Shown piece by piece: positions 31,024 to 59,838 of a stretch of DNA of 64,000 nucleotides. Both the position numbers and the translations under genes were made by a program. Origin of the DNA: Pseudomonas sessilinigenes (GTDB lineage: Bacteria; Pseudomonadota; Gammaproteobacteria; Pseudomonadales; Pseudomonadaceae); NCBI RefSeq assembly GCF_003850565.1, contig NZ_CP027706.1, forward strand, positions 5,890,001 to 5,954,000. Reading direction: 5' to 3'. The notes under the pieces are model-generated. The model had not been told where the DNA came from. It made no database searches and was given only the letters and a program-made list of their open reading frames with translations. Numbering within the stretch: position 1 is the first letter of the stretch; every line of letters begins with the position of its first letter.

Positions 31024-31069
31024 AATAGGCAATTTCCTGGACCGGGCAATTGCCAGGACATTCGTTTGC

Positions 31070-31090
31070 GCGGCTTTTTCTTTTGATTGC
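31070..31090 (-). promoter_or_regulatory. Candidate PchR-binding site upstream of pchD
   Basis: Read on the minus strand, this segment is GCAATCAAAAGAAAAA followed by GCCGC. It matches the segment at 32237-32257 upstream of fetA in 16 of 21 positions (GCAAnCnAAAGAAAA, then CGC three bases later). These are the two operons expected to be activated by PchR with its siderophore, so a shared AraC-type site is likely. Confidence 0.6.
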
Positions 31091-31138
31091 GCAACGCCCC
31101 GCCGGCAAAGCCTTACGGGGAGAGCCTCAAAAGCTAAA

Positions 31139-31153
31139 GGATAATCATTCTTA
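31139..31153. promoter_or_regulatory. Fur-like box upstream of pchR
   Basis: GGATAATCATTCTTA matches 11 of the 14 defined positions of the 7-1-7 Fur motif TGATAATnATTATCA. It lies about 63 bases before the pchR start, suited to iron repression of the activator gene. Confidence 0.55.
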
Positions 31154-31215
31154 ATTACAGATCAGAAATTTCCTGCTAGCTTATGACCTCTTTTCTGGTC
31201 CACAGGGAGTTCGCC

Positions 31216-32118
31216 ATGCTCAGCCGCCAAGCTGCGCCGCAGCCTGTCAAAAAGGATTTCACTCTGCACTTTCCCAACCCCCGGCAGGACGGTGCCGCCA
31301 CCGTGGTGCCAGAGATCACCCTGTCCACCGGGACCGTGTTGATGGAGAGCCAGATGTGGATGCAGGAATCGCTCTGGCAGGGCCTGAAGATCATCCTGGT
31401 GCTCAGCGGCCAGCTTAATTGCCGGGTCGAAGGCCAGCCGGAGGTGGAGATCCGCGGACCGACCCTGTGCGCCGTGGCCAACCAGGGCGAGCACTGCGGC
31501 GACCACCTGTTCGCCAGCGGCGTACCGGTGCGCTACACCACGGTGCAGCTGGACTTTCCCTCGATCCGTAACGTCGGCCTGGAGCCGGAGCGCCTGCTGG
31601 ACCAGCGTGGCGGCGGGCCGATGCTGTTCTGCCAACCGGCCAGCAAACCCCTGCTGGCCCTGGCCCAGCAGATCGTCACCTGCCCGCTGCAAGGCCCCAC
31701 CCGTTCCTTTTACCTGGGCGGCAAGGCCCTGGAACTGACAGCCCTGGGGGTCGAGGGCATCCTCGCCCATGCCGAATCCCGGCCATTGCAGGACAGCCCC
31801 TGCAGCTCGGCGGACATCGAGCGTATCCACGCCGCCCGCGACCTGCTGCTCAATTCGTTGCCAGCCTCGCCGTCGCTCTCCGAGCTGTCGCGCCAGGTGG
31901 GCCTCAACCCGCGCAAACTCACCGCCGGCTTTCGCCAGGTGTTCGGCACCAGCGTCTACGCCTACCTGCAGGAGCAGCGCCTGGGCGAGGCTTATCGCTT
32001 GCTGGCCAGCGGCGAGACCAATGTGTCCAGCGCCGCCTACCGGGTCGGCTACAGTCCCGCGCATTTCTCCACGGCGTTTCGCAAGCGCTTCGGGGTTTCC
32101 CCCAAATCCCTGCGCTGA
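31216..32118 (+). CDS. pchR: AraC-family regulator PchR
   Basis: A 300-residue AraC/XylS-type activator. The N-terminal ligand-binding half (LKIILVLSGQLNCRVEGQPEV) has a cupin-like look. The C-terminal DNA-binding half carries both helix-turn-helix units (PSLSELSRQVGLNPRKLTAGF and VSSAAYRVGYSPAHFSTAFRKRFG). PchR binds iron-loaded pyochelin-type siderophore and switches on biosynthesis and uptake genes. The ATG at 31216 follows AGGGAG; an ATG at 31183 has no ribosome site. It lies between the divergent pch operon and the fet operon. Confidence 0.95.
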   Translation: MLSRQAAPQPVKKDFTLHFPNPRQDGAATVVPEITLSTGTVLMESQMWMQESLWQGLKIILVLSGQLNCRVEGQPEVEIRGPTLCAVANQGEHCGDHLFASGVPVRYTTVQLDFPSIRNVGLEPERLLDQRGGGPMLFCQPASKPLLALAQQIVTCPLQGPTRSFYLGGKALELTALGVEGILAHAESRPLQDSPCSSADIERIHAARDLLLNSLPASPSLSELSRQVGLNPRKLTAGFRQVFGTSVYAYLQEQRLGEAYRLLASGETNVSSAAYRVGYSPAHFSTAFRKRFGVSPKSLR

Positions 32119-32236
32119 ATGCCGCGCCCGCTACACCGGGCGCCCAGCGCTGAACATCGCCTGACCTGCTTCCCTACTCGTCATTGACGCTCGCGTGTTT
32201 GCGCCGGGCCCATCCTGGCTGTGCCAACGAGTGCCG

Positions 32237-32257
32237 CAAACGAAAGAAAAGATCGCT
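32237..32257 (+). promoter_or_regulatory. Candidate PchR-binding site upstream of fetA
   Basis: GCAAACGAAAGAAAAG followed by ATCGC is 16/21 identical to the segment upstream of pchD (31070-31090, opposite strand). It lies 84 bases before the fetA start codon. Confidence 0.6.
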
Positions 32258-32292
32258 GCAGCCAAAGTTTTAGCCACCAGGCAACGTTCACT

Positions 32293-32317
32293 AATGAGAT
32301 ACGTTTGCATTCTCATT
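32293..32317. promoter_or_regulatory. Inverted repeat in the fetA promoter
   Basis: AATGAGA and TCTCATT arms are separated by 11 bases and end 23 bases before the fetA ATG. The left part (TAATGAGA) resembles a Fur half-site, and the position would cover the promoter or transcription start. Binding protein not certain. Confidence 0.45.
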
Positions 32318-32340
32318 TAATCCCCATCACGGAGTGAAGC

Positions 32341-34572
32341 ATGGGCACCCGCGTTGCGCACCGAAATACCCCAGGTTGGCCAGTCGAGCATGTGGCCGCG
32401 CGCCCCCCGTCCAACCGCGGCCCGCTGTCCTGCCTGGTCCACGGCGTGGCCCTGGGTCTGTCGCTGACCCAGGCCGCTAGCGCCCTGGCGGCAACCGCCG
32501 ACCAGGAGCAAGACCAGCCCCTGGTCCTGGACACCAGCGTGATCAGCACCAACGCCGTCGATTCGCCCACCGGGCAGCAAAGTGGCTACGTGGCCAAGCG
32601 CAGCCTCAGCGGAACCAAGACCGACGCCTCGCTCAGTGAAATCCCCCAGGCGATCTCCGTGGTCACCCGCGACCAGATGGACGCCCTGAAAGTGCAATCG
32701 GTGAACGAGGCCCTGCGCTATACCGCCGGGGTCCAGGCCAACACCATCGCCGCCAGCCAGCGCTTCGACACCATTTCGATCCGTGGCTTCGACGTCACCA
32801 CCGGCATGCTCCGCGATGGCCTCAAGGGCAACACCGCCCAGGCCTGGCCCAAGGTGGAAGCCTATGGCCTGGAGCGTATCGACGTGCTCAAGGGCCCGGC
32901 TTCGGTGCTGTTCGGCCAGAACGCTCCCGGCGGCGTGGTCAACCAGGTCAGCAAGCGGCCCCTGGACACCCCCTTCCACGAGGTGGAGATCCAGGGTGGC
33001 AGCTTCGGCCGGACCCAGGGCCAGTTCGATTTCAGTGGGCCCCTGGACGACCAGGGCCAGTTCCTCTATCGCCTGGTCGGCCTGCAACGGGACAGCGGCA
33101 CCCAGTTCGACCACATCCCCGACGACAAGCAGTTCATCGCACCATCCTTCACCTGGAAACCCAACGAAGACACCAGCCTGACCCTGCTGGCCGACTACAC
33201 CAAGGACAGCTTCGGCGCTCCACGCGTGCTCCTGCCCAGCCGTGGCACGCTGCTGGGCAACCCCAATGGCAAACTCAAGCGCAACGTGTTCCTCGACGAG
33301 CCGGGGCTGGACAACGGCCGCAACCAGTACAGCCTCGGCTACCTGCTGGAGCATCGCTTCAACGACGTCTGGAGCCTGAACTCCAGCGCCCGCTATGGCC
33401 ACGTCAACCTGCTGACCAACACCGCCAGCGGCATGTCCCTGGCCCCCGACCTGCGGACTTTGAACCGCGCCGCCTATCGCTTTCGCATCGTTGGCGATAC
33501 TTATTCGCTGGATAACAACGTCCAGGCCCGCTGGAACCTGGGCAGCACGCAGATGGTTTCGCTGCTGGGGCTGGACTACCGGCGCACCCGCGAGGACTAC
33601 CATCTGCTGGGCGGTACGGCATCGCCCATCGATATCTATCGCCCGGTACACGGTGGAGTCTTCGCGCCCGATAAACCGTTCGCCAACACCATGCAGCGCG
33701 CCGATCAGGTCGGGGTCTATGCCCAGCAGCAATTCACCTTCGACGACCACTGGGTACTCACCGTCGGCGGCCGCCAGGATCGCTCCAGCGCCCGTACCGA
33801 CAACCGCCTGGAAAACACCGGCAACAAGCAGAAGGACGAGAAGTTCACCTACCGTACCGGCCTGGTGTACCTGGCGGACAACGGCCTGGCGCCCTACATC
33901 AGCTACTCCACTTCGTTCGATCCGGTGTTGGGCACCAACTTCTACGGCACGCCGTACAAGCCCACCAGCGCCAAGCAGTCGGAGGTGGGGATCAAGTACC
34001 AACCACCGGGCATCGACAGCTACATCACCCTGGCGCTGTTCGACCTGACCCAGGAGAACGTCCAGACCGCCGATCCCGCCCAGCCCTTGAACAGGCTGCA
34101 GACCGGCGAGATCAACGTCCGCGGCGTCGAACTGGAAGGCAAGGCCAGCCTGGCCCAGGGCCTGGACCTGCTGGCGGCGCTGACCTGGAACGACGCCGAG
34201 GTGAGCAAGAGCAACAACCCGCTGGAAAAGGGCAAGCGGCCCACCGACACCCCGGAAAAGATGGCCTCGCTGTGGGCCGACTACAGCCTGCCCGACGGGC
34301 CGCTGGGAGGCCTGGGGTTCGGCGCCGGGGTGCGCTACATCGGCAGCACCAAGGGCGATCCCGCCAACACCCTCAACGTGCCCTCCTACACCCTGCTCGA
34401 TGCCGAGGTGCACTACGACTTCGACAAACTGGTCCCGGCGGCCAAGGGCCTGCGCCTGGCAGTCAATGCCAACAACCTCACCGACAAGCACTACTACGAA
34501 AGCTGTTCGGTGAGCAGTTGCAGTGCCGGTTACGACCGCAGTCTCATCGCCAGCCTGCGCTACCGCTGGTAG
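32341..34572 (+). CDS. fetA: TonB-dependent ferri-enantio-pyochelin receptor
   Basis: A 743-residue outer-membrane receptor. The long N-terminus includes a signal peptide ending near ASALA (about residue 50) and then a TonB-box-like run (LVLDTSVIS). The plug (SEIPQAISVVTRDQMDAL, ERIDVLKGPASVLFGQNAPGG) and the barrel (ending in a terminal aromatic, LRYRW) follow. Unlike the receptor at 9654 it has no N-terminal signalling domain, consistent with control through PchR. It heads the fet operon, with a CGGAG ribosome site. Ligand assignment rests on its place beside pchR and the enantio-pyochelin genes. Confidence 0.94.
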   Translation: MGTRVAHRNTPGWPVEHVAARPPSNRGPLSCLVHGVALGLSLTQAASALAATADQEQDQPLVLDTSVISTNAVDSPTGQQSGYVAKRSLSGTKTDASLSEIPQAISVVTRDQMDALKVQSVNEALRYTAGVQANTIAASQRFDTISIRGFDVTTGMLRDGLKGNTAQAWPKVEAYGLERIDVLKGPASVLFGQNAPGGVVNQVSKRPLDTPFHEVEIQGGSFGRTQGQFDFSGPLDDQGQFLYRLVGLQRDSGTQFDHIPDDKQFIAPSFTWKPNEDTSLTLLADYTKDSFGAPRVLLPSRGTLLGNPNGKLKRNVFLDEPGLDNGRNQYSLGYLLEHRFNDVWSLNSSARYGHVNLLTNTASGMSLAPDLRTLNRAAYRFRIVGDTYSLDNNVQARWNLGSTQMVSLLGLDYRRTREDYHLLGGTASPIDIYRPVHGGVFAPDKPFANTMQRADQVGVYAQQQFTFDDHWVLTVGGRQDRSSARTDNRLENTGNKQKDEKFTYRTGLVYLADNGLAPYISYSTSFDPVLGTNFYGTPYKPTSAKQSEVGIKYQPPGIDSYITLALFDLTQENVQTADPAQPLNRLQTGEINVRGVELEGKASLAQGLDLLAALTWNDAEVSKSNNPLEKGKRPTDTPEKMASLWADYSLPDGPLGGLGFGAGVRYIGSTKGDPANTLNVPSYTLLDAEVHYDFDKLVPAAKGLRLAVNANNLTDKHYYESCSVSSCSAGYDRSLIASLRYRW

Positions 34573-34578
34573 GCCGGC

Positions 34579-35460
34579 ATGCTGCGGCTACGTGAAATCT
34601 GGCTCGGGGTCCATCGCTGGCTGGCCCTGGGCCTGGGCTTGTTCCTGGCGCTCCTGGGGCTCAGCGGCGCACTGCTGGAGCTCAAGGGCCCGATCCTGCG
34701 CTGGGAGGTCGGCGGGCAGATGCTGCAGCTGGCTCCCGGCGAGCACGGCGCCCTGCTGGAACAGAGCGCCTGGATCAGCGCTGCGTCCAGCGCCTACCCA
34801 CAGTTGCACAAGGTGTTCGGTGCCGCCGCGCCACGCCAGGGCTTTCTCGAATCGGACAACGCCATCGTCTTTGGTGCACTCGAAGATCGTCCTGGCACCG
34901 GCATTGCCATGATCGATCCCTACCGCGCCGAGCCCCGGGGGTTCTTCGTGTTCGAGGACCTGTGGCTGGCGCGGTTGGTGGCCTTGCACCGCAGCCTGCT
35001 GTTGCCGCCAGCCTGGGGTTCGCTCCTGGTGCTGGCCTGCGGCCTGGCGCTGCTGGTCTCGTTGGGCAGCGGCCTGTACCTGTGGTGGCCGGGACGGCGC
35101 AGCTGGTGGAAGGCCGCCAGCCTGCGTCCCGGCAGCCGCGGCACCCGGCGCTTGCGCGAGTGGCACAACGTCGCTGCGGCCTGGCTATGCCTGCCCCTGG
35201 CGCTGATTGCCGGCAGCGGCGCCTGGCTGGCACAACCGCAGTGGTTCACCTGGCTGACCGGGCAACCCCTGGCGCTCAAGCCGCTGTTCTCCGCCGCCCA
35301 CGGCCAGCTGCTGCTGGGCGCTCCCGGTGCCTGGCTGGCCTTTGCCTGTGGCCTGGCGCTCCCCCTGCTGTACATCACCGGCCTGCTGTTGTGGTGGCGC
35401 AAGCGCGCCGCTCGCCGGGCCGTCCCATCGTTCAAGGAAATGACCCATGACACACCGTGA
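34579..35460 (+). CDS. fetB: PepSY-associated membrane protein FetB
   Basis: A 293-residue inner-membrane protein of the PepSY-TM family. It shows four hydrophobic segments: about residues 13-33 (LALGLGLFLALLGLSGALLE), 145-170, 205-225 and 250-275. The conserved motif HRWLALGLG is at the first helix, and LWWPGRR and LLWWRKR flank later ones. Such proteins accompany many siderophore receptors and are suspected of periplasmic ferric reduction; that activity is not proven here. It begins 6 bases after fetA and overlaps fetC by 14 bases. Confidence 0.85.
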   Translation: MLRLREIWLGVHRWLALGLGLFLALLGLSGALLELKGPILRWEVGGQMLQLAPGEHGALLEQSAWISAASSAYPQLHKVFGAAAPRQGFLESDNAIVFGALEDRPGTGIAMIDPYRAEPRGFFVFEDLWLARLVALHRSLLLPPAWGSLLVLACGLALLVSLGSGLYLWWPGRRSWWKAASLRPGSRGTRRLREWHNVAAAWLCLPLALIAGSGAWLAQPQWFTWLTGQPLALKPLFSAAHGQLLLGAPGAWLAFACGLALPLLYITGLLLWWRKRAARRAVPSFKEMTHDTP

Positions 35461-48748: not shown

Positions 48749-48829
48749 ACGGGCCGGACCGCCCTATCTGCAACCCAAGCAGTACCCGCAACACCCTTTG
48801 AACCGTTACCCACAGGAGTGGAACCAACA

Positions 48830-49963
48830 ATGAGTCGTATCAATAACAAAGCCACCCAACTGCTCAGCGCCATGATCCTCGCCGGCCTCGCCTGCCATTC
48901 CCTGGCCGCCGACACCATCCGGATCGGTATCGCCGGGGCCAAGACCGGCCCGGTCGCGCAATACGGCGACATGCAGTTCAGCGGCGCGCGCATGGCCATC
49001 GAGCAGATCAACGCCAAGGGCGGCGTCGACGGCAAGAAGCTCGAAGCCGTTGAATACGACGACGCCTGCGACCCCAAGCAAGCGGTGGCCGTGGCCAACA
49101 AGGTGGTCAATGACGGCGTCAAGTACGTGGTCGGCCACCTGTGCTCCAGTTCCACCCAGCCAGCGTCGGACATCTATGAAGACGAAGGCATCGTGATGAT
49201 CACCCCGGCCGCGACCAGCCCGGAGCTGACTTCCCGTGGCTACAAGATGGTGTTCCGCACCATCGGCCTGGACAATGCCCAGGGTCCGGCGGCAGCACGC
49301 TACATCGCCAAGCTCAAGCCCGCCAACGTCGCCGTGCTCCACGACAAGCAGCAGTACGGCGAAGGCATCGCCAGCTCGGTCAAGGACATCCTTGGCAAGG
49401 AAGGCATCAAGGTGGCGATGTTCGAAGGCATCAACGTTGGCGAGCGCGATTACTCCTCGATCCTGGCCAAGATCAAGCAGGCCAATGTCGACTTCGTGTA
49501 CTTCGGCGGCTACCACCCGGAAATGGGCCTGTTGCTGCGCCAGGCCAAGGAAAAGGGCCTGACCGCGCGCTTCATGGGACCTGAAGGCGTGGGCAACGAC
49601 TCCATCTCGCAAATCGCCAAGGATGCCTCCGAAGGCATGCTGGTGACCCTGCCCAAGTCCTTCGACCAGGACCCGGCCAACAAGGCCCTGGTGGAAGCCT
49701 TCCAGGCCAAGCAGGAAAACCCCAGCGGACCGTTCGTGCTGCCTTCCTACTCGGCAGTAGAGGTGATTGCCGGCGCCATCGCCGCGGCCAAGAGCGAAGA
49801 CCCGGAGAAGGTCGCCCAGGCGATCCACGCCGGCACCTTCAAGACCCCGACCGGGGACCTGAGCTTCGATGAAAAAGGCGACCTCAAGGACTTCAAGTTC
49901 GTGGTCTACGAATGGCACTACGGCAAGCCGAAGACAGCAACGGCCGATAACGCCGGGCTCTGA
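48830..49963 (+). CDS. Branched-chain amino-acid ABC transporter substrate-binding protein (LivK/BraC-like)
   Basis: A 377-residue periplasmic binding protein. The signal peptide ends near SLAA (about residue 27); the mature start DTIRIGIAGAKTGPVAQYGDMQFSG, then INAKGGVDGKKLE and YVVGHLCSSSTQPASDIYEDE, match LivJ/LivK/BraC. The ATG at 48830 follows AGGAG by about 11 bases; the GTG at 48818 is too close to it. No livHMGF permease and ATPase genes follow; the next gene is over 700 bases away and unrelated. It starts 81 bases after mdeA and may be co-expressed, perhaps feeding methionine or another amino acid. That link is inference. Confidence 0.88.
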   Translation: MSRINNKATQLLSAMILAGLACHSLAADTIRIGIAGAKTGPVAQYGDMQFSGARMAIEQINAKGGVDGKKLEAVEYDDACDPKQAVAVANKVVNDGVKYVVGHLCSSSTQPASDIYEDEGIVMITPAATSPELTSRGYKMVFRTIGLDNAQGPAAARYIAKLKPANVAVLHDKQQYGEGIASSVKDILGKEGIKVAMFEGINVGERDYSSILAKIKQANVDFVYFGGYHPEMGLLLRQAKEKGLTARFMGPEGVGNDSISQIAKDASEGMLVTLPKSFDQDPANKALVEAFQAKQENPSGPFVLPSYSAVEVIAGAIAAAKSEDPEKVAQAIHAGTFKTPTGDLSFDEKGDLKDFKFVVYEWHYGKPKTATADNAGL

Positions 49964-49972
49964 AGTACCGTA

Positions 49973-50031
49973 CCGGGCGCCGCCAATCTGGCGGCGCCCG
50001 GACGCTTTCAGGTGCAAGGCCTGAAAGCGTC
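49973..50031 (+). terminator. Two adjacent perfect hairpins after the binding-protein gene
   Basis: The first stem is 12 bp (49973-49984 with 49990-50001, loop AATCT). The second is also 12 bp (GACGCTTTCAGG at 50001-50012 with 50020-50031, loop of seven), so they touch. Neither has a T run. They begin 10 bases after the stop codon. Confidence 0.6.
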
Positions 50032-50680
50032 CTGCAAGACGGCCCTTCTGGAGCCAAACTTTCGCCATGATTCCCGAGTGTTCTAGTTGGGAATAAGTTG
50101 AAACCCTGGTAACAAAAAGAACCGCACCAGGTAACACTTCCCTCTATCTCCAATCTAAAACCTTAACCTTCCAATCACTTTGGAATGAGGTCAGGCTTTT
50201 TTCGAAAAGTCGTTAGCGTGCTTTGTTTTCTCCACAACTTTAAACCCTGAAACCCGCCCTGAAAGCTCAACTAAAATTCGCTCTAAAGCCCTGAAAAGCC
50301 CGTGGTAAAAGGCCCCTGCCATTAATGAAAGCCCAGGCCATGGGGCGACAAGCTGCCGCTCGAATGCCTGCCCCTGTTGGGTAAAGGTCGCGCCATGGCG
50401 GTAACCAAGCACCCAATCAAGGCACTCTGCCATCCAACTAAAACGTTAAAGCTAAAAACCAGTCCTTCCAGCAAGCGTTACCGCCAAAGATGAAACTAAT
50501 GTTACTGCACAAGTGAAAAATCCACCGCAACTAAAAAGTCAATAAAGGCGAATGCCAGTTCCACTTATTTCAGCAAAAAAATACTGTTTGCTAACTAAAT
50601 TCCATTTTGTATATCGTGCGCAACATCAAATTGCCAGCTTTAGAAATCACTTCAGCCAGCATCTTTAAGGAGAAAAGAAC
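50032..50680. other. AT-rich intergenic region before the collar-protein cluster
   Basis: About 650 bases, clearly poorer in GC than the rest of the window, with many A and T runs. It holds one weak open frame (50191-50433) and must contain the promoter of the collar cluster. I see no tRNA, integrase remnant or repeat that would mark an insertion point. Confidence 0.5.
50191..50433 (-). CDS. Hypothetical small protein, doubtful
   Basis: An 80-residue frame in the AT-rich region. The predicted protein (MAECLDWVLGYRHGAT to HANDFSKKA) is moderately basic, has no clear membrane segment and resembles nothing I recognise. The codon for the start is preceded by a poor ribosome site. It could be a decayed gene fragment. 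Confidence 0.25.
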   Translation of the reverse strand: MAECLDWVLGYRHGATFTQQGQAFERQLVAPWPGLSLMAGAFYHGLFRALERILVELSGRVSGFKVVEKTKHANDFSKKA

Positions 50681-51226
50681 ATGGATCCCTTTCTCGGCGA
50701 AATCCGCCTGTTCCCCTGGGGTTGGGCACCTGAAGGCTGGCTCCCGTGCGAGGGGCAGATCCTGCCATTCAACAGCAACGTGGCGCTGGCCTCCCTGCTG
50801 GGCAAGACCTTTGGTGGCGATGGCACCACCACCTTCGGCCTGCCGGACCTGCGTGGCCGGGTAGCCCTGGGACAGAACCTCAAGCCCTCGACTGTTCCTC
50901 CGATCATGGATGTCCATGTGCTGGGCACTCAGGGCGGCACTGAAACAGTGGCCATGCCGCAAAGTTCGCTGCTCGCGCACACCCATGCCACCCATGTCTC
51001 GAATACCACCGGTAACGCAGGACCTGCCGGCAACATTCCCGCCATCAGCTCGAACACCGCGGGCGCGGTTGCAAAACCGACCTACACCCTGGCGGCGAAC
51101 AATCCCATGCGCCTCAACAACGCCACGGTCGTTCCGACCGAGGGCTTGCCCATGCAGAACATGCAACCTTCCATCGTTGGCTGTTTCTGCATTGCCACGA
51201 CCGGCACCTACCCTCCGCGCCCTTAA
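50681..51226 (+). CDS. Phage tail-collar domain protein (MdpB-like), first of three
   Basis: A 181-residue protein of the tail-collar / microcystin-dependent-protein family. The N-terminal collar domain reads FLGEIRLFPWGWAPEGWLPC, then LPFNSNVALASLLGKTFGGD and GTTTFGLPDLRGRVALG. The middle is a Thr/Asn/Ala-rich, low-complexity region with HTHATH. The end NMQPSIVGCFCIATTGTYPP is conserved in the two paralogues that follow. There is no signal peptide. A strong AAGGAG site precedes it. No other phage structural gene is near, so this is a stand-alone bacterial collar protein of unknown role, not a prophage piece. Confidence 0.88.
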   Translation: MDPFLGEIRLFPWGWAPEGWLPCEGQILPFNSNVALASLLGKTFGGDGTTTFGLPDLRGRVALGQNLKPSTVPPIMDVHVLGTQGGTETVAMPQSSLLAHTHATHVSNTTGNAGPAGNIPAISSNTAGAVAKPTYTLAANNPMRLNNATVVPTEGLPMQNMQPSIVGCFCIATTGTYPPRP

Positions 51227-51261
51227 CGGCTATCTACAGGCCCTCAAGCAAGGAAACTGAT

Positions 51262-51837
51262 ATGTCTGAAGCCTTCGTCGGAGAGATCCGCATATTCGCT
51301 GGTAACTATCCACCTCAAGGTTGGACAGTGTGTGACGGCAAGCTTCTCTCGATCAACGACTACCAAATCCTGTATTCGTTACTGGGCACCCTGTATGGCG
51401 GCAACGGCACCACCACCTTCGCCGTGCCGAACTACTCCGACCGACTCGTTGTAGGGATGGGAAGTGGTCCGGGCCTGACCCCAAGGGCACTGGTGACAAC
51501 CATGGGAGTGACAGCAGTCACCATGCGCCCGGAGAACACGCCAAGCCATAGCCACTCTTTCAACGTGAGCACCGACAACGCCATCTCCTCAGAACCCTCC
51601 CCCGCGGCCACTTCCAAGAAGATGACCTTCGGCACGTTCCCGGGTGCGGGCATCATCACCGGCCTGTACAGCAAGGGAACCGGTACCTCACCTGCCCAAG
51701 CCCTGGACCCGGCCTTTCTCGACACCGCGCTGATCCCCCCCAGCATCAACGCGACCCCTCATACAAACCTGATGGGCTCACTGAGCATCTGCTACATCAT
51801 TTGCCTGGCCGGCCTGTATCCGACCCGCAACCAGTAA
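51262..51837 (+). CDS. Phage tail-collar domain protein, second of three
   Basis: A 191-residue paralogue of the preceding protein. FVGEIRIFAGNYPPQGWTVC, SINDYQILYSLLGTLYGGNG and TTTFAVPNYSDRLVVGMGSG form the collar domain. The middle differs (TPSHSHSFNVSTDNA), and the end LSICYIICLAGLYPTR is conserved. It begins 35 bases after the first and is likely co-transcribed. Sequence divergence among the three suggests old duplication with separate roles, for example different tips of one fibre. That is speculation. Confidence 0.88.
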   Translation: MSEAFVGEIRIFAGNYPPQGWTVCDGKLLSINDYQILYSLLGTLYGGNGTTTFAVPNYSDRLVVGMGSGPGLTPRALVTTMGVTAVTMRPENTPSHSHSFNVSTDNAISSEPSPAATSKKMTFGTFPGAGIITGLYSKGTGTSPAQALDPAFLDTALIPPSINATPHTNLMGSLSICYIICLAGLYPTRNQ

Positions 51838-51867
51838 CTTTTATCACTCAATCTGGAACGACCGATC

Positions 51868-52407
51868 ATGGACGCGTTTACCGGTGAAATCAGACTGTTC
51901 CCCTACAACTTCGCACCGCGAAACTGGGCCTATTGCGATGGTTCGACCCTTACTGTCCAACAGAACCCAGGGCTCTTTTCGGTCATTGGCAACATGTATG
52001 GCGGCACTCCAGGGATAACCTTCCAACTGCCCGATCTCAGCGGACGCGTCGCCATGGGTGCCGGAGCCCTCAGCCAGTTCGCCGTGGGTATCAAGATGGG
52101 CGCCGACCGGATACAACTGCAGCCCAATAACATCTCGTCCCATACCCACTTGGTCCTGGCCAAGGACGGCAGCGAAACGGCAGCGGCCCTGGACACCCCC
52201 AACAACACCGCTTACCTGGCACAACCACGCAATGTGCGTTTGTACAGCACCGTCGTCCCGACGTCGGGCGACCAAACGCTGGACCCTGGCACAGTGGGAC
52301 CGGCCGGCAACCCCACGATACCGCCGACAATGCGCAACACCATGCAGCCCTACCTGACGTTGTGCTATTGCATCTGCCTGGATGGCGAGTACCCGGTCAA
52401 ACCCTGA
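51868..52407 (+). CDS. Phage tail-collar domain protein, third of three
   Basis: A 179-residue paralogue. FTGEIRLFPYNFAPRNWAYC, TVQQNPGLFSVIGNMYGGTP and ITFQLPDLSGRVAMGAGALS form the collar domain. NISSHTHLVLAKDGSE is the middle His-containing segment, and TLCYCICLDGEYPVKP is the conserved end with a Cys-rich C-x-C-x-C core. It begins 30 bases after the second gene, and its stop codon overlaps the start of the acetyltransferase gene (TGATG), so expression is tightly coupled. Confidence 0.88.
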   Translation: MDAFTGEIRLFPYNFAPRNWAYCDGSTLTVQQNPGLFSVIGNMYGGTPGITFQLPDLSGRVAMGAGALSQFAVGIKMGADRIQLQPNNISSHTHLVLAKDGSETAAALDTPNNTAYLAQPRNVRLYSTVVPTSGDQTLDPGTVGPAGNPTIPPTMRNTMQPYLTLCYCICLDGEYPVKP

Positions 52408-52943
52408 TGACGTACTCCACGCACCTCTCACCAACGGCAAGCCCCGCGGTCGTACTGCGCCAGCAGGACGACCACGATCGGGCGTTCCTGCATGGGCTGT
52501 ACCTGTCGCGCCGCTGGGCCGAGGTCAGCGCGGTGCCCGGCTGGCATGACGACCAGCGCCGTGACTTCCTGGTGTCCCAGGCTGAGTTGCAACGCCAGCA
52601 CTATGAAAAACACTACCCCGCGGCGGATTTCCTGATCATCGAGCAGGCGGGCCTCCCCATCGGGCGGCTGTGCGTGAATCGCCAGGCGAACGATGTGCGC
52701 ATCGTCGATATCGCCCTGCTCCCGGCTTGGCACGGCCAGGGCATTGGCACGCAGTTACTGCAGAGCCTGCTCGCCGAGGCCGATGCCCTGGGGCGCTCCT
52801 GCAGCCTGAGCGTCGAACAAGGCAGCCCGGCCCGCAGACTCTATGAGCGCCTGGGCTTCCAGAGCGGCGCCGATAGCGGCCTCTATACCCAGATGCAGCG
52901 GCCCGTCCGGCCTGTTGCGCAAGAGGACCTCGACAACCCTTGA
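52407..52943 (+). CDS. GNAT-family N-acetyltransferase coupled to the collar genes
   Basis: A 178-residue acetyltransferase. The acetyl-CoA site is in VDIALLPAWHGQGIGTQLLQ, and SPARRLYERLGFQ is the usual C-terminal GNAT motif. The ATG overlaps the stop of the third collar gene (TGATG), so I prefer it over the ATG at 52362. Coupling to the collar genes suggests that its substrate may be one of those proteins or a compound made with them. No direct evidence for the substrate is visible. Confidence 0.88.
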   Translation: MTYSTHLSPTASPAVVLRQQDDHDRAFLHGLYLSRRWAEVSAVPGWHDDQRRDFLVSQAELQRQHYEKHYPAADFLIIEQAGLPIGRLCVNRQANDVRIVDIALLPAWHGQGIGTQLLQSLLAEADALGRSCSLSVEQGSPARRLYERLGFQSGADSGLYTQMQRPVRPVAQEDLDNP

Positions 52944-53057
52944 GTGTCGTGCAGGACCTGCCCATTGGGCCGGCTGTAGCCATGTTGTAACCGCTGGACC
53001 TTTATCAACATTCACGCTGGACACGACCCGCAAGCCGGTCGCAAGGCAGGAAGCCCC

Positions 53058-56000
53058 ATGAAAACGCCACTTATCGCGCTAGGTACCTGGGTGAAACGCC
53101 CGCTGCTTTCACTCTTTATGCTGCTGGTCATGCTGTCCCTGGCGAACCAGGCAATGGCCGCGGCTCCCGTGATCACCAGCCCGGCCTCGGGCAGTACCTT
53201 GCCCAGCGTGGCGGTGGGCCAGTCCATGAGCATCCCCATCAGTTCCACTGGCGGAGCCCTGCCTCTGGACAGGTGGGTGGAATGCGATGCCAACGACCCG
53301 GACTACGATGGCGTGACCCCCTGCCTGCCCTCGGGCCTGATCCTCGATCCGTCACCGGGCAGCGCAACCACCACACTTCACGGCGCTCCAACCACCGCCG
53401 GCAGCTACACCTTCAGCATCACCCTCAATGACGGCCTGAATCAGGGCGGTGTCGCCACCTACACCCTGTTGGTCACGAGCGGGGCAACGCCGACCCTGAC
53501 GTCGGTCTCCCCCAACACCGGGACCACCGCCGGTGCCACCGCCGTCACCCTGAGCGGCACCAACCTGACCGGGGCGACCGCGGTCAGCTTTGGCGGCACG
53601 GCCGCCACGGGTTTTAGCGTCAGCAATGCCAGCACCATTACCGCCACTACCCCGGCCCATGCCGCTGGCGCGGTGAATGTGATGGTTACCACCCCAAGCG
53701 GCACGGCGACCCTGACCAATGCCTATACCTATGCCGTACCGGCCCCGACCGTTGGCCCGGTGAGCGCCACGGTGGCCGCCAACAGCAGCAGCAACCCGAT
53801 CACCTTGAGCCTGAGTGGCGGCACCGCCACCAGCGTGGCCGTCTCCACTGCCGCGACCCACGGGACCGCCACTGCCACCGGCACCAGCATCACCTACACC
53901 CCCACCGCCGGTTACTCCGGCAGCGACACATTCGCCTATACCGCCACCAACGCCAGCGGCACCTCCAGCCCGGCCACCGTGACCCTCACCATCAGCGCGC
54001 CGACCCTGGCGATAACGCCGACCACTGTGCCCAACGGCACCCAGGGCACGGCCTACAGCACGACCCTGACCGCCTCCGGCGGCACTGCGCCCTACACCTA
54101 CGCAATCACCAGCGGCAGCCTGCCGGCCGGGCTGAGTCTGAACACCAGCAACGGATCGATCAGCGGTACGCCGAGCGCCAGTGGCAACACCAACCTGACC
54201 GTCACCGCCACTGACGCCAACAGCGCCACTGGCTCCAGGGCCTACACCTTGACGATCGACGCTCAAGCACCGGTTGCCAACGCCGTCAGCGCCACGGTCG
54301 TGGCCAACAGCAGCAGCAACCCGATCACCCTGAATATCACCGGTGGCACCGCCACCAGCGTGGCCGTCTCCACCGCCGCGACCCACGGGACAGCCACTGC
54401 CACCGGCACCAGCATCACCTACACTCCCACTGCCGGTTACTCCGGCAGCGACACCTTCGCCTATACCGCCACCAACGCCAGCGGCACCTCCAGCCCGGCC
54501 ACCGTGAGCCTCACCGTCAGCGCGCCGACCCTGGCGATAACGCCGACCACTGTGCCCAACGGCACCCAGGGCACGGCCTACAGCACGACCCTGACCGCCT
54601 CCGGCGGCACTGCGCCCTACACCTACGCAATCACCAGCGGCAGCCTGCCGGCCGGGCTGAGTCTGAACACCAGCAACGGATCGATCAGCGGTACGCCGAG
54701 CGCCAGTGGCAACACCAACCTGACCGTCACCGCCACTGACGCCAACAGCGCCACCGGCTCCAGGGCCTACACCTTGACGATCGACGCTCAAGCACCGGTT
54801 GCCAACGCCGTCAGCGCCACGGTCGTGGCCAACAGCAGCAGCAACCCGATCACCCTGAATATCACCGGTGGCACCGCTGCCAGCGTGGCCGTCGCCACCG
54901 CCGCAGCCCACGGGACCGCTACCGCCACCGGCACCAGCATCACCTACACCCCTACCCCCGGCTATTCCGGCAGCGACACTTTCACCTATACCGCCACCAA
55001 CGCCAGCGGTACCTCCAGCCCGGCCACCGTGAGCCTCACCGTCAGCGCTCCCACCCTGGTGATTGCCCCGGCCAGTTTCAGCAGTGGCACGGTGGGCACG
55101 GCCTACAGCACCATTCTCAGCACCAGCGGCGGCACTGCGCCCTACTCCTACAACATCACCAGCGGCAGTCTGCCTTCCGGCCTGAATCTGAACCCCCTCA
55201 CCGGCGCGATCAGCGGTACGCCAACAGCGAGCGGCACCAGCAACCTGACCATCACCAGCACCGACAACAACGGTGTTACAGGCAACAAGGCCTATTCCCT
55301 GCAAATCAATGCACAGGCCCCAGTAGCCAACGCGGTCAGCGCCACGTTGGCAGCCAACAGCAGCAGCAACCCGATCACCCTGAGCCTGAGTGGCGGCGCC
55401 GCCACCAGCGTGGCCGTTTCCACCGCCGCGACCCACGGCACCGCTACCGCCACCGGCACCAGCATCACCTACACCCCTGCCCCTGGTTACTCCGGCAGCG
55501 ACACCTTCGCCTACACCGCCACCAACGCCAGCGGCACCTCCAGCCCGGCCACCGTGACCCTCACCATCAACGCTCCAACCCTGGTAATTACTCCGGCCAG
55601 TTTCAGCAATGGCACAGTGGGCACGCCCTACAGCACCACCCTCAGCACCAGCGGCGGCGCCGTACCCTATGCCTACAGCATCACCAGCGGCAGCCTGCCT
55701 TCCGGCTTGAGCCTGAACACCCTCACCGGCGCGATCAGCGGTACGCCAACAGCGAGCGGCACCAGCAACCTGACCCTCACCAGCACCGACAACAATGGCG
55801 CTACAGGCAGCAAGGCCTACACCCTGCAAATCAATGCACAGGTCCCTATAGCCAATGCGGTCAGTGCCACGGTGGCAGCCAACAGCAGCGCTAACTCGAT
55901 CACCCTGAGCCTGAGTGGCGGCGCCGCCGCCAGCGTGGCCGTCGCCACCGCCGCAACCCACGGCACCGCTACCGCCACCGGTACCGGCATCACCTACACC

Positions 56001-58289
56001 CCTGCCCCTGGTTACTCCGGCAACGATACCTTTGCCTATACCGCCACCAACGCCAGTGGTACTTCCAACCCAGCCACCGTGACCCTCACCGTCAGTGCAC
56101 CGACCCTGAGTATCAACCCCGCGAGCCTGGGCGCAGGGACCAGTGGCACGCCCTACAGCACCACCCTCAGCACCAGCGGCGGCGCCGCGCCCTACACCTA
56201 CAGCATCACCAGCGGTAGCCTGCCCGCAGGCCTGAGCCTGAACGCCAGCACCGGGACAATCAGCGGTACCCCAAGTGCCAGCGGCACCAGCAACCTGACC
56301 CTCACCAGCACCGACAACAATGGCGCTACAGGCAGCAAGGCCTACACCCTGCAAATCAATGCACAGGTCCCTGTAGCCAACGCGGTCAGTGCCACGGTGG
56401 CAGCCAACAGCAGCACTAACCCGATCACCCTGAGCATCAGCGGCGGCACCGCCACCAGCGTGACAGTCTCCACCGCCGCAACCCACGGCACCGCTACCGC
56501 CACCGGTACCGGCATCACCTACACCCCTGCCCCTGGTTACTCCGGCAACGACACCTTTGCCTATACCGCCACCAACACCAGTGGCACTTCCAGCCCGGCC
56601 ACCGTGACCCTCACCGTCAGTGCACCGACCCTGAGTATCAACCCCGCAAGCCTGGGCGCGGGCACCAGTGGCACGGCCTACAGCGCCGTCCTCAGTAGTT
56701 CCGGAGGCAGCGCGCCCTACACCTACAGCATCACCAGCGGCAGCCTGCCCGCAGGCCTGAGCCTGAACGCCAGCACCGGGACAATCAGCGGTACGCCAAC
56801 GGCCAGCGGCACCAGCAACCTGACCCTCACCAGCACCGATAGCAACGGCGCCACGGGCTCGCGGGCCTACTCGATCAGCATCAGCGCCGTGCCCATCAGC
56901 GTGCCGGCCTCCAGCCAGATCCTCTCGGCCGGAGAAGAAGCCATCGTCGACCTGACCCAGGGCGCCACGGGTGGCCCCTTCACCCAGGTCATCCTGGGTA
57001 CGGTGAGTCCGGCCTCGGCCGGTAGGGCCATGATGCGCGGCCCCTTCTCGATGCGCTTCGTGCCCTCGGCGGCCTTTGCCGGTACCGCGATCATCAGCTT
57101 CAGGTTGCACAACGGCACGGGCTCCAGCGCTGCTAGCACGGTCAGTTTCATCGTCCAGCCGCGCCCGGACCCCACCAAGGATGGCGAAGTGATCGGCCTG
57201 CTCAATGCCCAGAGCCGAAGCGCAGAACGCTTTGCCAGTACCCAGATGGACAACTTCAACCATCGACTGGAACAACTGCATCAAATGCGTTGCGACCGCA
57301 ATTCGTTCAATGCCAGCCTGCGCAAGGACGGTAGCGACCTGCCCCTGGGCGAGATGGCCAAGGCCATCGAGCAGCAACTGGGGAGTTCGGCAAACCAGAC
57401 CGAGCAGCAAAAACGCGAAGCTGCGAGCGCTGCGCAAAATGGCGAGTGCCAACAGCAGGCCCTGGCGTTCTGGAGCGATGGTTTCGTCAACAACGGCTCG
57501 ACCCATGCCCGCGGCGCCCGCGACAACAGCTTCACCACCATGGGCCTGAGCGCCGGTGCCGACTATCGCCTGTCGCCTACCGTCATCGCCGGTATCGGCA
57601 TCGGCTACGGCACCGATCGCAGCGAGATTGGCGACCACAAGACCCGCAGCGATGCGGACGCCATTGGCATCGCCACCTATCTGAGCCTGAACCCCGCCTC
57701 GCAGTTCTACCTGGACGGTTTGCTGGGCTATAACCGCATCAGCTTCGACTCGCGTCGCTACATCACCGGCAGCGCCAACGACTACGCCCGTGGCTCGCGC
57801 GATGCCGACCAGTTGTTCGCGTCCCTCACCGCCAGCTACGAATACCGCCAGGGCCAGTTGTCGCTGACGCCCTATGGGCGTTTCAATGCCAGCACCACGC
57901 GCCTGGACGCCTTCAGCGAAAACGGCGGAGGCATCTACGGCCTGTCCTATGAGGAACAGCGCCAGCAGAACTTCACGTCCTACCTGGGCCTGCGTACCGG
58001 CTATGACCTGATGACCCGGGTCGGTGTGGTCACTCCCAAGGTAGGCCTGGCCTGGGGGCACAATTTCAGCACCCACAGCGACTACAAGATGCGCTACACC
58101 GACCAGGGCGACGAGGGCATCCTGTATCGCCTCAAGCCCGACGCCCAGGACAGCGATTTCGCCAGCCTGGACATGGGTATGGACTTCAACCTCGGACGCG
58201 CCTGGCAACTGGGCTTCTCCTACAAGACCGCCCTGGGCTCCGATGAGCGCAACGACAGCTTCCGCCTGGGCCTGAACGGCAAGTTCTAG
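53058..58289 (+). CDS. Giant autotransporter with tandem Ig-like repeats
   Basis: A 1743-residue type V secreted adhesin-like protein. The signal peptide is about residues 1-35 (LFMLLVMLSLANQAMA). Next come a putative-Ig domain (36-140), an IPT/TIG domain (141-226, PTLTSVSPNTGTTAGATAV) and six 175-residue repeats (227-1276). Each repeat pairs a cadherin-like fold (YSGSDTFAYTATNASGTSSP) with a putative-Ig fold (SGSLPAGLSLN). A linker with a helical stretch follows (FASTQMDNFNHRLEQLHQM), then a C-terminal autotransporter barrel (about 1475-1743) ending in F. It lies 114 bases after the acetyltransferase gene on the same strand and is probably part of the same system. No protease or RGD motif is seen. 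Confidence 0.92.
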   Translation: MKTPLIALGTWVKRPLLSLFMLLVMLSLANQAMAAAPVITSPASGSTLPSVAVGQSMSIPISSTGGALPLDRWVECDANDPDYDGVTPCLPSGLILDPSPGSATTTLHGAPTTAGSYTFSITLNDGLNQGGVATYTLLVTSGATPTLTSVSPNTGTTAGATAVTLSGTNLTGATAVSFGGTAATGFSVSNASTITATTPAHAAGAVNVMVTTPSGTATLTNAYTYAVPAPTVGPVSATVAANSSSNPITLSLSGGTATSVAVSTAATHGTATATGTSITYTPTAGYSGSDTFAYTATNASGTSSPATVTLTISAPTLAITPTTVPNGTQGTAYSTTLTASGGTAPYTYAITSGSLPAGLSLNTSNGSISGTPSASGNTNLTVTATDANSATGSRAYTLTIDAQAPVANAVSATVVANSSSNPITLNITGGTATSVAVSTAATHGTATATGTSITYTPTAGYSGSDTFAYTATNASGTSSPATVSLTVSAPTLAITPTTVPNGTQGTAYSTTLTASGGTAPYTYAITSGSLPAGLSLNTSNGSISGTPSASGNTNLTVTATDANSATGSRAYTLTIDAQAPVANAVSATVVANSSSNPITLNITGGTAASVAVATAAAHGTATATGTSITYTPTPGYSGSDTFTYTATNASGTSSPATVSLTVSAPTLVIAPASFSSGTVGTAYSTILSTSGGTAPYSYNITSGSLPSGLNLNPLTGAISGTPTASGTSNLTITSTDNNGVTGNKAYSLQINAQAPVANAVSATLAANSSSNPITLSLSGGAATSVAVSTAATHGTATATGTSITYTPAPGYSGSDTFAYTATNASGTSSPATVTLTINAPTLVITPASFSNGTVGTPYSTTLSTSGGAVPYAYSITSGSLPSGLSLNTLTGAISGTPTASGTSNLTLTSTDNNGATGSKAYTLQINAQVPIANAVSATVAANSSANSITLSLSGGAAASVAVATAATHGTATATGTGITYTPAPGYSGNDTFAYTATNASGTSNPATVTLTVSAPTLSINPASLGAGTSGTPYSTTLSTSGGAAPYTYSITSGSLPAGLSLNASTGTISGTPSASGTSNLTLTSTDNNGATGSKAYTLQINAQVPVANAVSATVAANSSTNPITLSISGGTATSVTVSTAATHGTATATGTGITYTPAPGYSGNDTFAYTATNTSGTSSPATVTLTVSAPTLSINPASLGAGTSGTAYSAVLSSSGGSAPYTYSITSGSLPAGLSLNASTGTISGTPTASGTSNLTLTSTDSNGATGSRAYSISISAVPISVPASSQILSAGEEAIVDLTQGATGGPFTQVILGTVSPASAGRAMMRGPFSMRFVPSAAFAGTAIISFRLHNGTGSSAASTVSFIVQPRPDPTKDGEVIGLLNAQSRSAERFASTQMDNFNHRLEQLHQMRCDRNSFNASLRKDGSDLPLGEMAKAIEQQLGSSANQTEQQKREAASAAQNGECQQQALAFWSDGFVNNGSTHARGARDNSFTTMGLSAGADYRLSPTVIAGIGIGYGTDRSEIGDHKTRSDADAIGIATYLSLNPASQFYLDGLLGYNRISFDSRRYITGSANDYARGSRDADQLFASLTASYEYRQGQLSLTPYGRFNASTTRLDAFSENGGGIYGLSYEEQRQQNFTSYLGLRTGYDLMTRVGVVTPKVGLAWGHNFSTHSDYKMRYTDQGDEGILYRLKPDAQDSDFASLDMGMDFNLGRAWQLGFSYKTALGSDERNDSFRLGLNGKF
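53736..56885 (+). repeat. Six tandem 525-base repeats inside the autotransporter gene
   Basis: Units begin at 53736, 54261, 54786, 55311, 55836 and 56361, every one exactly 525 bases, keeping frame. The putative-Ig halves of units 1 and 2 are almost identical at the DNA level, whereas units 3-6 differ by scattered bases, which points to recent duplication or gene conversion of the first units. Confidence 0.93.
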
Positions 58290-58354
58290 ACCCAAAGCAG
58301 GCTAGCGGTTGTGGCCGGCACCGTGCAGCGGGAACCCCTTCCCCTGTACTGCAG

Positions 58355-58398
58355 AAAAAAACACCCCGCCGGAGCCAGGCTCCGGCGGGGTGTTTTTT
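58355..58398. terminator. Bidirectional Rho-independent terminator
   Basis: A 15-bp GC stem (58361-58375 with 58379-58393, loop CAG) is flanked by six A on the left and five more T on the right. It lies between the convergent autotransporter and aminotransferase genes and can stop both. Confidence 0.93.
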
Positions 58399-58437
58399 CT
58401 CACCCGATAACGGATCGGGACAAGCGCCTATCGACCA

Positions 58438-59838
58438 TCAGGCCGCTGGCAAGCTCCCGGCGTCGATCTCACCTGCGGTGCGCTCCAGCGCGCGACGGGT
58501 CTTGTCCACCAGCTCGTCGATATCCGTCCGAGTCGCCACCAGGGCCGGGGCCATGATCATCCGGCCCAGGGTCGAGCGAATGATCACCCCCTCCTCGAAA
58601 CCCAGGGTGCGACAGCGCCAGGCGATGTCGTTCTCGTTGGCGAAGCGCTGGCGGCTGGCCTTGTCCTTGGCCAATTGCAAGGCGGCCACCAGACCGGTGC
58701 CCTGGATCTCGCCAATCAGCGGATGGTTGCCGAACACCTCCCGCAGGCACTGCTGCAAGTACGGGCCGGTATCGTCGCGGACCCGGTCCACCACGCCCTC
58801 GTCGCGCAAGGCCTTGAGGTTGGCGATGGCCACGGCTGCCGCCACCGGGTGCCCGGAATAGGTCAGGCCGTGGGCGAACACGCCACCCTCCTCCACCAGC
58901 ACCTGGGCGATGCGCTTGCCCAGCACCAGGCCGCCCATGGGCACGTAGCCGCTGGTCAGGCCCTTGGCGATGGACAGGGTATCGGGCTCGAAGCCGAAGT
59001 GCTGGTGGGCGAACCACTGGCCGGTACGCCCGAACCCGCCGATCACCTCGTCGGCGCACAGCAGCACGTCGTACTGGCGGCAAATGCGCTGGATCTCTGG
59101 CCAGTAGCTTTGCGGCGGGAAGATCATGCCGCCAGCGCCCTGGAAGGGTTCGGCGATGAACCCGGCGACGTTCTCGGCCCCCAGTTCGAGGATCTTCTCC
59201 TCCAATTGCCGGGCGCAACGCAGGCCGAACTCGGCCGGGCTCAAGTTGCCCTCATGGGCGAACCAGTAGGGTTCGTCGATATGCGCGACATCCGGAATCA
59301 GCCCGCCCATTTCATGCATGAACTTCATGCCGCCCAGGGCCGTGGCCGCGAGTGTCGAGCCGTGATAGCCGTTCCAGCGGCCGATCATCACCTTCTTCTG
59401 CGGCTGGCCGAGGATCTGCCAGTAGCGGCGCACAGTGCGGATCAGCACCTCATTGGCCTCAGAACCGGAGTTGGTGTAGATGGCATGGCTGTAGTGCCCC
59501 GGCAACAGGCTGAACAGCAGTTCGGACAGCTCCACCACCGCCGGGTGGGTGGTGTGGAAGAACATGTTGTAGTACGGCAGTTGTTCGAGCTGGGCCGTGG
59601 CCGCGGCGGCCAGGTCCTTGCGGCCGTAGCCGAGGTTGGTGCACCACAGGCCGGACATGCCGTCCAGGTAGCGCTTGCCGTCGTTATCCCAGAGCTGCAA
59701 GCCTTCACCCCGGACGATCACTCGCGGACCTTCGGCATTCAGGGCCTTTTGGTCGAGGAACGCATGGATATGGTGCGCTGCGTCCAGATCCTGGTAGTCC
59801 CGGGTGCTGCGTTGCGGCTGGGGGGTATAAGCACTCAT
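58438..59838 (-). CDS. Class III aminotransferase, polyamine (SpuC-like)
   Basis: A 466-residue omega-amino-acid/amine aminotransferase. LWDNDGKRYLDGMSGLWCTN, YNMFFHTTHPAVVELSELL, NSGSEANEVLIRTVRRYW and LLCADEVIGGFGRTG match the family, with the cofactor lysine in SIAKGLTSG (K292). The set most resembles putrescine/spermidine-pyruvate aminotransferases such as SpuC. The ATG at 59838 is chosen because AGGAG lies 7 bases upstream; the ATG at 59844 overlaps the permease stop (ATGA) but is too close to that site. The aldehyde it makes could go to the dehydrogenase at 61377. Confidence 0.87.
   Translation of the reverse strand: MSAYTPQPQRSTRDYQDLDAAHHIHAFLDQKALNAEGPRVIVRGEGLQLWDNDGKRYLDGMSGLWCTNLGYGRKDLAAAATAQLEQLPYYNMFFHTTHPAVVELSELLFSLLPGHYSHAIYTNSGSEANEVLIRTVRRYWQILGQPQKKVMIGRWNGYHGSTLAATALGGMKFMHEMGGLIPDVAHIDEPYWFAHEGNLSPAEFGLRCARQLEEKILELGAENVAGFIAEPFQGAGGMIFPPQSYWPEIQRICRQYDVLLCADEVIGGFGRTGQWFAHQHFGFEPDTLSIAKGLTSGYVPMGGLVLGKRIAQVLVEEGGVFAHGLTYSGHPVAAAVAIANLKALRDEGVVDRVRDDTGPYLQQCLREVFGNHPLIGEIQGTGLVAALQLAKDKASRQRFANENDIAWRCRTLGFEEGVIIRSTLGRMIMAPALVATRTDIDELVDKTRRALERTAGEIDAGSLPAA

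Follow-up and report, generated by a model that had tools for sequence, protein, structure and literature searches.

In a 64,000-nucleotide stretch of the Pseudomonas sessilinigenes genome, referred to below as the window (its source genome, G000, is one contig of 6.9 Mb), five genes follow each other on the plus strand at 50681-58289: three stand-alone phage-tail-collar proteins (COL1, COL2 and COL3), a GNAT acetyltransferase and an autotransporter carrying immunoglobulin (Ig)-type repeats. Comparison with other bacteria revealed that the core of this set is the collars and the GNAT, together with a DUF6916 protein that is absent from the window, and that the large partner beside them is variable. 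We are confident that these genes make up a genuine, conserved functional set and that the autotransporter is its partner in this lineage. The fuller account that we put forward, a domesticated phage-fibre-head module working with a large repetitive surface protein, is offered tentatively. The parts belong to known domain families, the unit as a system fits no known kind that was tested, and within the searches made it is undescribed: in the literature searched (subscription papers and preprints outside the scope; judged by title and start of abstract among the matches listed) we found no description of the gene set, no mention of DUF6916, no use of the unhyphenated phrase 'microcystin dependent protein' and no paper bringing phage tail collar, adhesin and biofilm together, although an E. 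coli genome paper (PMC4134206) contains both 'tail collar' and 'autotransporter', in agreement with the original prediction on this DNA, which knew of no described function for the combination. The features of the unit are as follows.

49964..50680, + strand: presumed promoter or regulatory region, 717 bp, A+T-richer (GC 0.473 against 0.59-0.67 in the genes)
50681..51226, + strand: COL1, stand-alone collar of 181 residues, lineage p1, HxH motif AHTHA (PF07484, E 2e-24; tree)
51262..51837, + strand: COL2, stand-alone collar of 191 residues, lineage p2, HxH motif SHSHS (PF07484, E 1.4e-24; tree)
51868..52407, + strand: COL3, stand-alone collar of 179 residues, lineage p3, HxH motif SHTHL (PF07484, E 2.9e-23; tree)
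52407..52943, + strand: GNAT acetyltransferase of 178 residues, acetyl-CoA motif GQGIG (PF00583, E 6.5e-14; collars near its relatives in 80/80 loci)
53058..58289, + strand: autotransporter of 1743 residues with Ig-type repeats, He_PIG and Big_9 (domain scan; 7/7 orthologues adjoin collars)
53058..53162, + strand: signal-peptide-like start of the autotransporter, residues 1-35 (read directly and seen in a hydrophobicity scan)
57468..58223, + strand: beta-barrel of the autotransporter, residues 1471-1722 (PF03797, E 6e-46)
58356..58398, either strand: bidirectional intrinsic terminator, 20-bp perfect inverted repeat with loop CAG and a T run on either strand (direct reading and scan)

Frames, coordinates and gene order were confirmed, and the unit is built as the original prediction had described it. 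The three collars score 82-86 bits against PF07484 (cut-off 24) and stand without phage genes, none having been found among the eleven flanking open reading frames (ORFs) scanned, three of which had no match of any kind. The stop codon of COL3 and the GNAT ATG at 52407 share one base in the sequence TGATG, the Ig-repeat autotransporter follows on the same strand, and the short gaps (35 bp between COL1 and COL2, 30 bp between COL2 and COL3 and 114 bp between GNAT and autotransporter) and the strong terminator at the end were all borne out.

Recurrence and make-up of the core

Scanning one genome per GTDB species with an alignment (A2) of five GNATs that already stand beside collars yielded 86 relatives, of which the best 80 were analysed. 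Recurrence, the check that had been proposed with the original prediction, came out positive: a collar ORF lay within 5.3 kb of the GNAT in 80/80 loci and within 2 kb in 78/80, figures that describe this GNAT clade and not GNATs in general. Some of the GNATs were missed by the gene caller, and the collar distances come from a recount. The 80 loci span five phyla, 15 named orders and 30 named genera and are not independent, 75 belonging to Pseudomonadota (22 of them labelled Pseudomonas), two to Acidobacteriota and one to each of three other phyla, in part as metagenome-assembled genomes (MAGs). Three collars stand upstream on the GNAT strand in 45/80 loci, in 33 of these 45 within 350 bp of the GNAT, and in some of the remaining three-collar loci a gene of about 412 residues separates the collars from it. 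In 57 related genomes 17 of 18 GNAT matches at E<=1e-9 had a stand-alone collar at a distance of about 3 kb or less, and the remaining match, an additional GNAT in the window genome, lay 33 kb away; conversely, stand-alone collars occurred in 18 of these genomes, and only one of the 18 (G048), with three of its four collars flagged for signal peptides, was without a neighbouring GNAT. Annotated plasmid or chromid records extend the pattern to Paenibacillus (Bacillota), where an SLH-anchored Ig protein is divergent from an annotated GNAT and three collars, and to two genera of Bacteroidota: Spirosoma, with three collars, a formyltransferase-type gene in the position of the GNAT and then a 1487-residue Ig/CBM protein, all on one strand, and Hymenobacter, with a single collar between two large proteins and no GNAT annotated. 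The recurrence across phyla is more than chance would give.

DUF6916 (PF21880), a protein of about 100 residues, was present in 70/80 loci and in 69/80 lay no more than 1 kb from the GNAT or from a collar. Among 274 genomes of the class it was found in six, all of which also carry PF07484, a family seen in 26 of the 274; six of the ten DUF6916 matches in this check were within 2.5 kb of a collar and the other four on separate contigs. All 13 matches in the 57 relatives were less than 0.7 kb from a collar, 12 of them above the family cut-off. The window GNAT scores 52.6 bits against PF00583 (cut-off 20.7) and carries the acetyl-CoA-binding Q/RxxGxG motif, whose glycines are invariant in the five GNATs of A2. 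It falls short of the RimI equivalog TIGR01575 (35.9 bits, cut-off 86.4), and its profile matches in the PDB, among 60 of 100 listed, are a mixture of N-terminal, polyamine and other acetyltransferases.

When 144 collars from 48 triplets were placed on a tree, the position labels first, second and third changed 7 times against a shuffled mean of 68.4, a kind of clustering that near-copies inflate; five p1 rows of this tree are less than half filled, the automatic choice of start being late. A more careful tree of 54 module collars and nine viral ones (three contigs) required four changes for four groups and placed the module collars on one side of a branch with support 100/97, the viral triplets L173 and L185 having triplicated separately. 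Long-branch warnings were raised for both trees, as for the barrel tree described below. The p1, p2 and p3 distances follow one another closely over 30 loci (r 0.87-0.88, where 2000 shuffles reached 0.50 at most), and unusual neighbours are shared: an Acidobacteria locus (L080) groups beside Hoeflea in all three collar lineages. Judged from these trees, the three collars are separate lineages with a fixed order and not one gene copied thrice, and p1, p2 and p3 appear to move as if a block; such co-inheritance would look like the pattern expected of distinct parts of one heteromer, short of proof.

An HxH motif, counted anywhere in the chain, is present in 144/144 triplet collars and in 177/189 collars of a wider set, and both of its histidines are invariant in a 45-row alignment of COL2. 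Compared with the PDB, the collar profile matched the long tail fibre 8kec (E 1e-9), and the T4 short tail fibre gp12 (C-terminal head 1ocy, E 5e-6; 5iv5 and 1pdi, E 1e-5). The likeness to gp12 is a sequence profile match to its PF07484 head that includes the HxH segment, the collar motif aligning with HKH of 1ocy; in gp12, zinc is bound by HxH pairs from three chains. Unlike gp12, the collars of the window stand alone at about 170-190 residues, without shaft and without surrounding phage genes, and collars of this type are three paralogues in a kept order, linked to a GNAT and DUF6916. A published study (PMC2738908) uses 'Microcystin-dependent protein-like' alongside 'phage tail Collar Domain' in naming related bacterial matches. 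Bacterial use of phage-fibre-like trimers has, by description, a likeness in the chimaeric fibre (MAT) proteins of Bdellovibrio, which we take to serve recognition; we know of no GNAT or DUF6916 partner of these fibres. Stand-alone collars presumably also correspond to COG4675, 'microcystin-dependent protein' (MdpB), which we use as a family label only.

Several variants of the core were seen in passing. Alphaproteobacteria carry between the third collar and the GNAT a family of about 407-494 residues (L065:8669-9910; L161:8558-10042; family 7, 12 loci) with at most weak Tectonin/FG-GAP matches, perhaps a beta-propeller. In Deinococcus and Trueperaceae a periplasmic-binding-protein gene lies between the last collar and the GNAT (L154:10147-11397; L160:9673-10842; L063:8714-9937), in L063 between a single collar and the GNAT; the alphaproteobacterial gene of about 412 residues was tried as a relative of the Trueperaceae one, and no similarity was found. 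One genome (G345; L148:6420-13206) holds two collar triplets with one GNAT, beside the second. In Azospirillum (L156:109-17598) triplet, GNAT and DUF6916 stand among glycosyltransferases, 2-oxoglutarate (2OG)-Fe(II) oxygenases and a PqqD-type protein, with lasso-peptide B2 and asparagine-synthetase-type genes as further neighbours.

The large surface partner

The autotransporter has the features of type Va, namely an N-terminal signal peptide by a simple hydrophobicity rule, a passenger of seven He_PIG and six Big_9 stretches, a C-terminal PF03797 barrel and an aromatic end (terminal Phe); Tandem Repeats Finder detected no tandem array at the DNA level in its gene. It resembles the classical type Va adhesins in its signal-peptide-like start, repeat passenger, barrel and terminal Phe, and differs from them in being genetically tied to a collar triplet and a GNAT; no catalytic passenger domain was found. 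Fifteen of 249 Pseudomonas genomes had a barrel match at E<=1e-20, 16 matches in all. The seven with at least 64% identity lie, without exception, directly downstream of a collar triplet and GNAT, so that the autotransporter is found with the collars and not usually apart from them, as the original prediction had supposed, whereas none of the nine at 35-42% identity is beside a triplet and seven of the genomes holding these have no PF07484 at E<=1e-18. On the barrel tree 17 collar-adjacent barrels form two clades, one of Pseudomonas and Aeromonas (same strand, downstream) and one of Xanthomonadaceae and S. meliloti (divergent). Given that nine unlinked barrels lie between these two clades, the partnership was probably either gained or lost more than once.

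Applying a composition rule to ORFs of at least 500 residues, we saw a surface-like one no farther than 2.5 kb from the collar block in 54/80 loci; 54 of 99 such large ORFs near the block were surface-like against 4 of 67 beyond 4 kb (Fisher p 1.7e-11), and of 52 complete surface-like ORFs only 21 were picked out by a rough rule for signal peptides. Chosen examples identified by Pfam include autotransporters in Xanthomonas and S. meliloti, cadherin in Bradyrhizobium, PKD/Ig in Roseibium, Big_1 in Puniceibacterium and DUF7933/DUF11 in Blastocatellia. In another Pseudomonas the partner is a DUF4347 and Big_12 protein accompanied by HlyD and M50-HlyD, with OEP in a sister locus, and an Acidobacteria MAG has CarboxypepD_reg repeats beside the GNAT. 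The neighbour in an Alteromonadaceae locus is a sensor kinase, and no recognised surface domain was found in the large neighbours scanned of three loci (L100, L101 and L115). The idea of one system of collars, GNAT and surface protein therefore holds in part: the unit recurs without a prophage, but the autotransporter is the partner in this lineage and is not universal, because the large partner varies and in part of the loci was not seen. Likewise, of the suggestion that the genes form a fibre or surface assembly, the adjoining large surface-like protein stands, but collars acting as a surface fibre are left unsupported by the signal-peptide counts given below.

Loci of the exporter-like kind were seen in other Pseudomonas (L034:3686-17888 and matching parts of L032-L047), where a collar and GNAT, mostly with DUF6916, lie among two HlyD genes, an M50-peptidase/HlyD fusion, OEP and a DUF4347/Big_12 protein of 2000-3000 residues, and in some cases also sulfotransferase, hydroxylase or mannosyltransferase-type genes; the proteins scanned included no ABC transporter. 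They resemble the window in placing collar and GNAT beside a giant Ig-repeat protein, and differ from it in their HlyD, M50-HlyD and OEP genes, since no type I secretion gene (ABC/HlyD/TolC-type) was found among the eleven ORFs scanned around the window unit.

Proposed mechanism and alternative readings

In the account that we favour, the three leaderless collars, each of the size of a gp12-type head without shaft, would fold into a single heterotrimer in which every chain contributes one HxH pair to a common metal site. The GNAT would acylate a cytosolic amine of the collars, most simply the N-terminus (the proteins start MS[ED]P, MD or MA), a role that we infer from linkage, a shared compartment and the one formyltransferase swap; that no strong GNAT match stands beside the four loci with signal-peptide collars fits a modification in the cytosol. 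Once complete, the head would serve the Ig-repeat protein, which would be exported separately, either by leaving through a non-Sec route to act as its binding tip or by acting as its assembly partner, and the purpose may be attachment. In a bolder form, which we think unlikely, the collars would be an obligate heterotrimer, acylated by its dedicated GNAT (or formyltransferase), assembled in the cytosol and leaving the cell without leader as the recognition head of Ig-repeat surface proteins, whatever the export pathway of these (type V, HlyD/OEP-type or S-layer-anchored), in at least six phyla.

A number of observations weigh against such a surface role or against the generality of the set. 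Testing every Met within 60 residues upstream as a start, we found no signal-peptide-like start in 185 collar ORFs of the 80 loci, and none was seen in the 144 triplet collars either; nor was an exporter common to the loci seen, and the Paenibacillus carrier of the module presumably has no outer membrane. A single collar is present in 25/80 loci, so a three-chain heterotrimer cannot be general, and the AlphaFold2 monomer of COL2 was a poor model (predicted local distance difference test, pLDDT, 45). The distance correlation between GNAT and collars (r 0.62-0.68) is weaker than that among the collars; in L080 the GNAT lies 4 kb from its own collars, and its phylogenetic neighbours differ from theirs. 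DUF6916 was found neither in the seven loci of the window's clade (L051-L057) nor in the whole genomes G000 and G024. By the composition rule 26/80 loci lack a surface-like neighbour, partly at contig ends, and the neighbours in two Sphingomonas loci scanned are peptidases and a deiminase. Finally, 42 loci were selected by collar, chosen by hand from the best or multi-collar matches and not comprising all matches; 27 of these have a strong match to the GNAT clade and 15 do not, and stand-alone collars lacking the module GNAT therefore exist. The 15 comprise six with long collar ORFs of more than 800 nt (L050, L137, L139, L145, L146 and L147), four with signal-peptide collars (L048, L049, L138 and L143), two near contig ends (L133 and L140) and three plain exceptions (L136, L142 and L144).

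Since the collars are leaderless, the GNAT and the module collars share the cytosol, in which GNATs and acetyl-CoA reside, and a role at the surface would need an exit other than Sec. This exit is the weakest step of the surface account and the main reason to consider that collars, GNAT and DUF6916 all stay inside the cell as an assembly or quality-control set, and affect how the surface protein beside them, or another product of the cell, is folded, stored or regulated. The lack of signal peptides and of a common exporter, and the loci without an adhesin beside the module, such as the two of Sphingomonas, speak for this reading, but the collars resemble receptor-binding heads of phages, and a few other stand-alone collars do bear signal peptides, so that export of such proteins probably occurs; on balance we judge it somewhat unlikely. 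The collars in question, outside the module, are 4/189 of the wider set and, among the loci selected by collar, those of four loci (L048, L049, L138 and L143). They look like a second kind of stand-alone collar, possibly Sec-exported; no strong GNAT match was found beside them, and a single weak one lies 2 kb from L138.

That the collar-GNAT unit and the autotransporter are independent and merely adjacent would fit the 114-bp gap, the change of large partner from lineage to lineage and the modules without adhesin. It would leave unexplained why the close autotransporter orthologues in the 249 genomes all adjoin a triplet and the distant ones never do, and why a second, divergent autotransporter clade (Xanthomonadaceae and S. 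meliloti) also stands beside collars, and we regard it as quite improbable. Being leaderless, gp12-head-like and shaftless, the collars could also leave the cell as soluble heads, such as decoys or binding proteins set free on lysis, that never attach to the surface protein; the recurrent surface-protein neighbour would then be unaccounted for and no lysis gene is present among the window neighbours scanned, which makes release very unlikely. GNAT toxins are a known class, yet a toxin-antitoxin or anti-phage defence locus is highly improbable here, the unit having only collars and an autotransporter and no antitoxin gene of the ribbon-helix-helix (RHH)/DUF1778 type, and its five proteins having no PADLOC match.

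As to origin, almost all of the PHROG families that the collars match are tail families. COL3 matched 152 phage records, all below 60% identity, and COL2 matched one; the GNAT had a single weak match in 50,697 phage records and no relative was found in viral_contigs. Among the best 80 collar loci from viral_contigs, two hold a module-type GNAT and one DUF6916; the two with GNAT (L162 and L168) look like bacterial modules. Other viral contigs (L173, L176-L182, L184, L185 and L195) carry three tandem collars of about 220-237 residues, some beside collagen-like ORFs, without the module GNAT, and the triplets of L173, L185 and L195 stand apart from the bacterial module on the tree. Ancient domestication of a phage fibre head would be the simplest origin. 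A prophage remnant or tailocin piece in the present window is hardly credible: the PF07484 and PHROG tail matches, the viral triplets and the two GNAT-bearing viral loci might suggest one, but the flanking ORFs scanned are not phage, so that the collars were not found inside a prophage, the same set recurs in five or more phyla, the GNAT is all but absent from the phage records, the two viral loci look bacterial, and the module collars form their own clade, separate from the three viral triplets on the tree.

Flanks of the unit and significance

The longest open frame of the GNAT opens at GTG 52362, and the five genes were also called by a codon-usage gene caller of our own, which set the start of the GNAT 45 bp farther upstream. 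The terminator hairpin begins 66 bp beyond the end of the autotransporter, and a terminator scan of 49900-58500 matched there only. A promoter scan of the upstream region gave no sigma-70-type match, and no Rfam match was found in 49900-53100. Eight of the eleven flanking ORFs are metabolic or regulatory; among the three without match, two are probably wrong-strand frames, because enzymes were found on the opposite strand. One flank includes a Cys/Met pyridoxal-phosphate (PLP) enzyme, a LivJ-type binding protein and Lrp-type and LysR-type regulators, and the other an aminotransferase, an amino-acid permease, an aldehyde dehydrogenase and an M20 peptidase. The LivJ-type gene (48818-49963) was considered as a member of the unit and rejected, being a typical branched-chain amino-acid binding protein (629 bits, cut-off 477); the binding-protein genes of Deinococcus and Trueperaceae, which occupy a different place, weaken its case further. 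Elsewhere in the window (16803-35460), a domain scan revealed non-ribosomal peptide synthetase genes with an ABC exporter, an AMP-ligase, a TonB receptor and a PepSY protein, a cluster that we take to resemble that of the siderophore enantio-pyochelin.

The annotated plasmid records whose labels were seen list stand-alone collar genes as 'tail fiber protein', which makes them sound like the debris of a phage, while the collars described here are half of a conserved gene set that occurs in bacteria from plants, the sea and soil, across several phyla, and is tied to giant surface proteins and to DUF6916. If confirmed, the account would provide a function for many misnamed genes, a testable case of the domestication of a phage fibre and possibly a new route of leaderless export.

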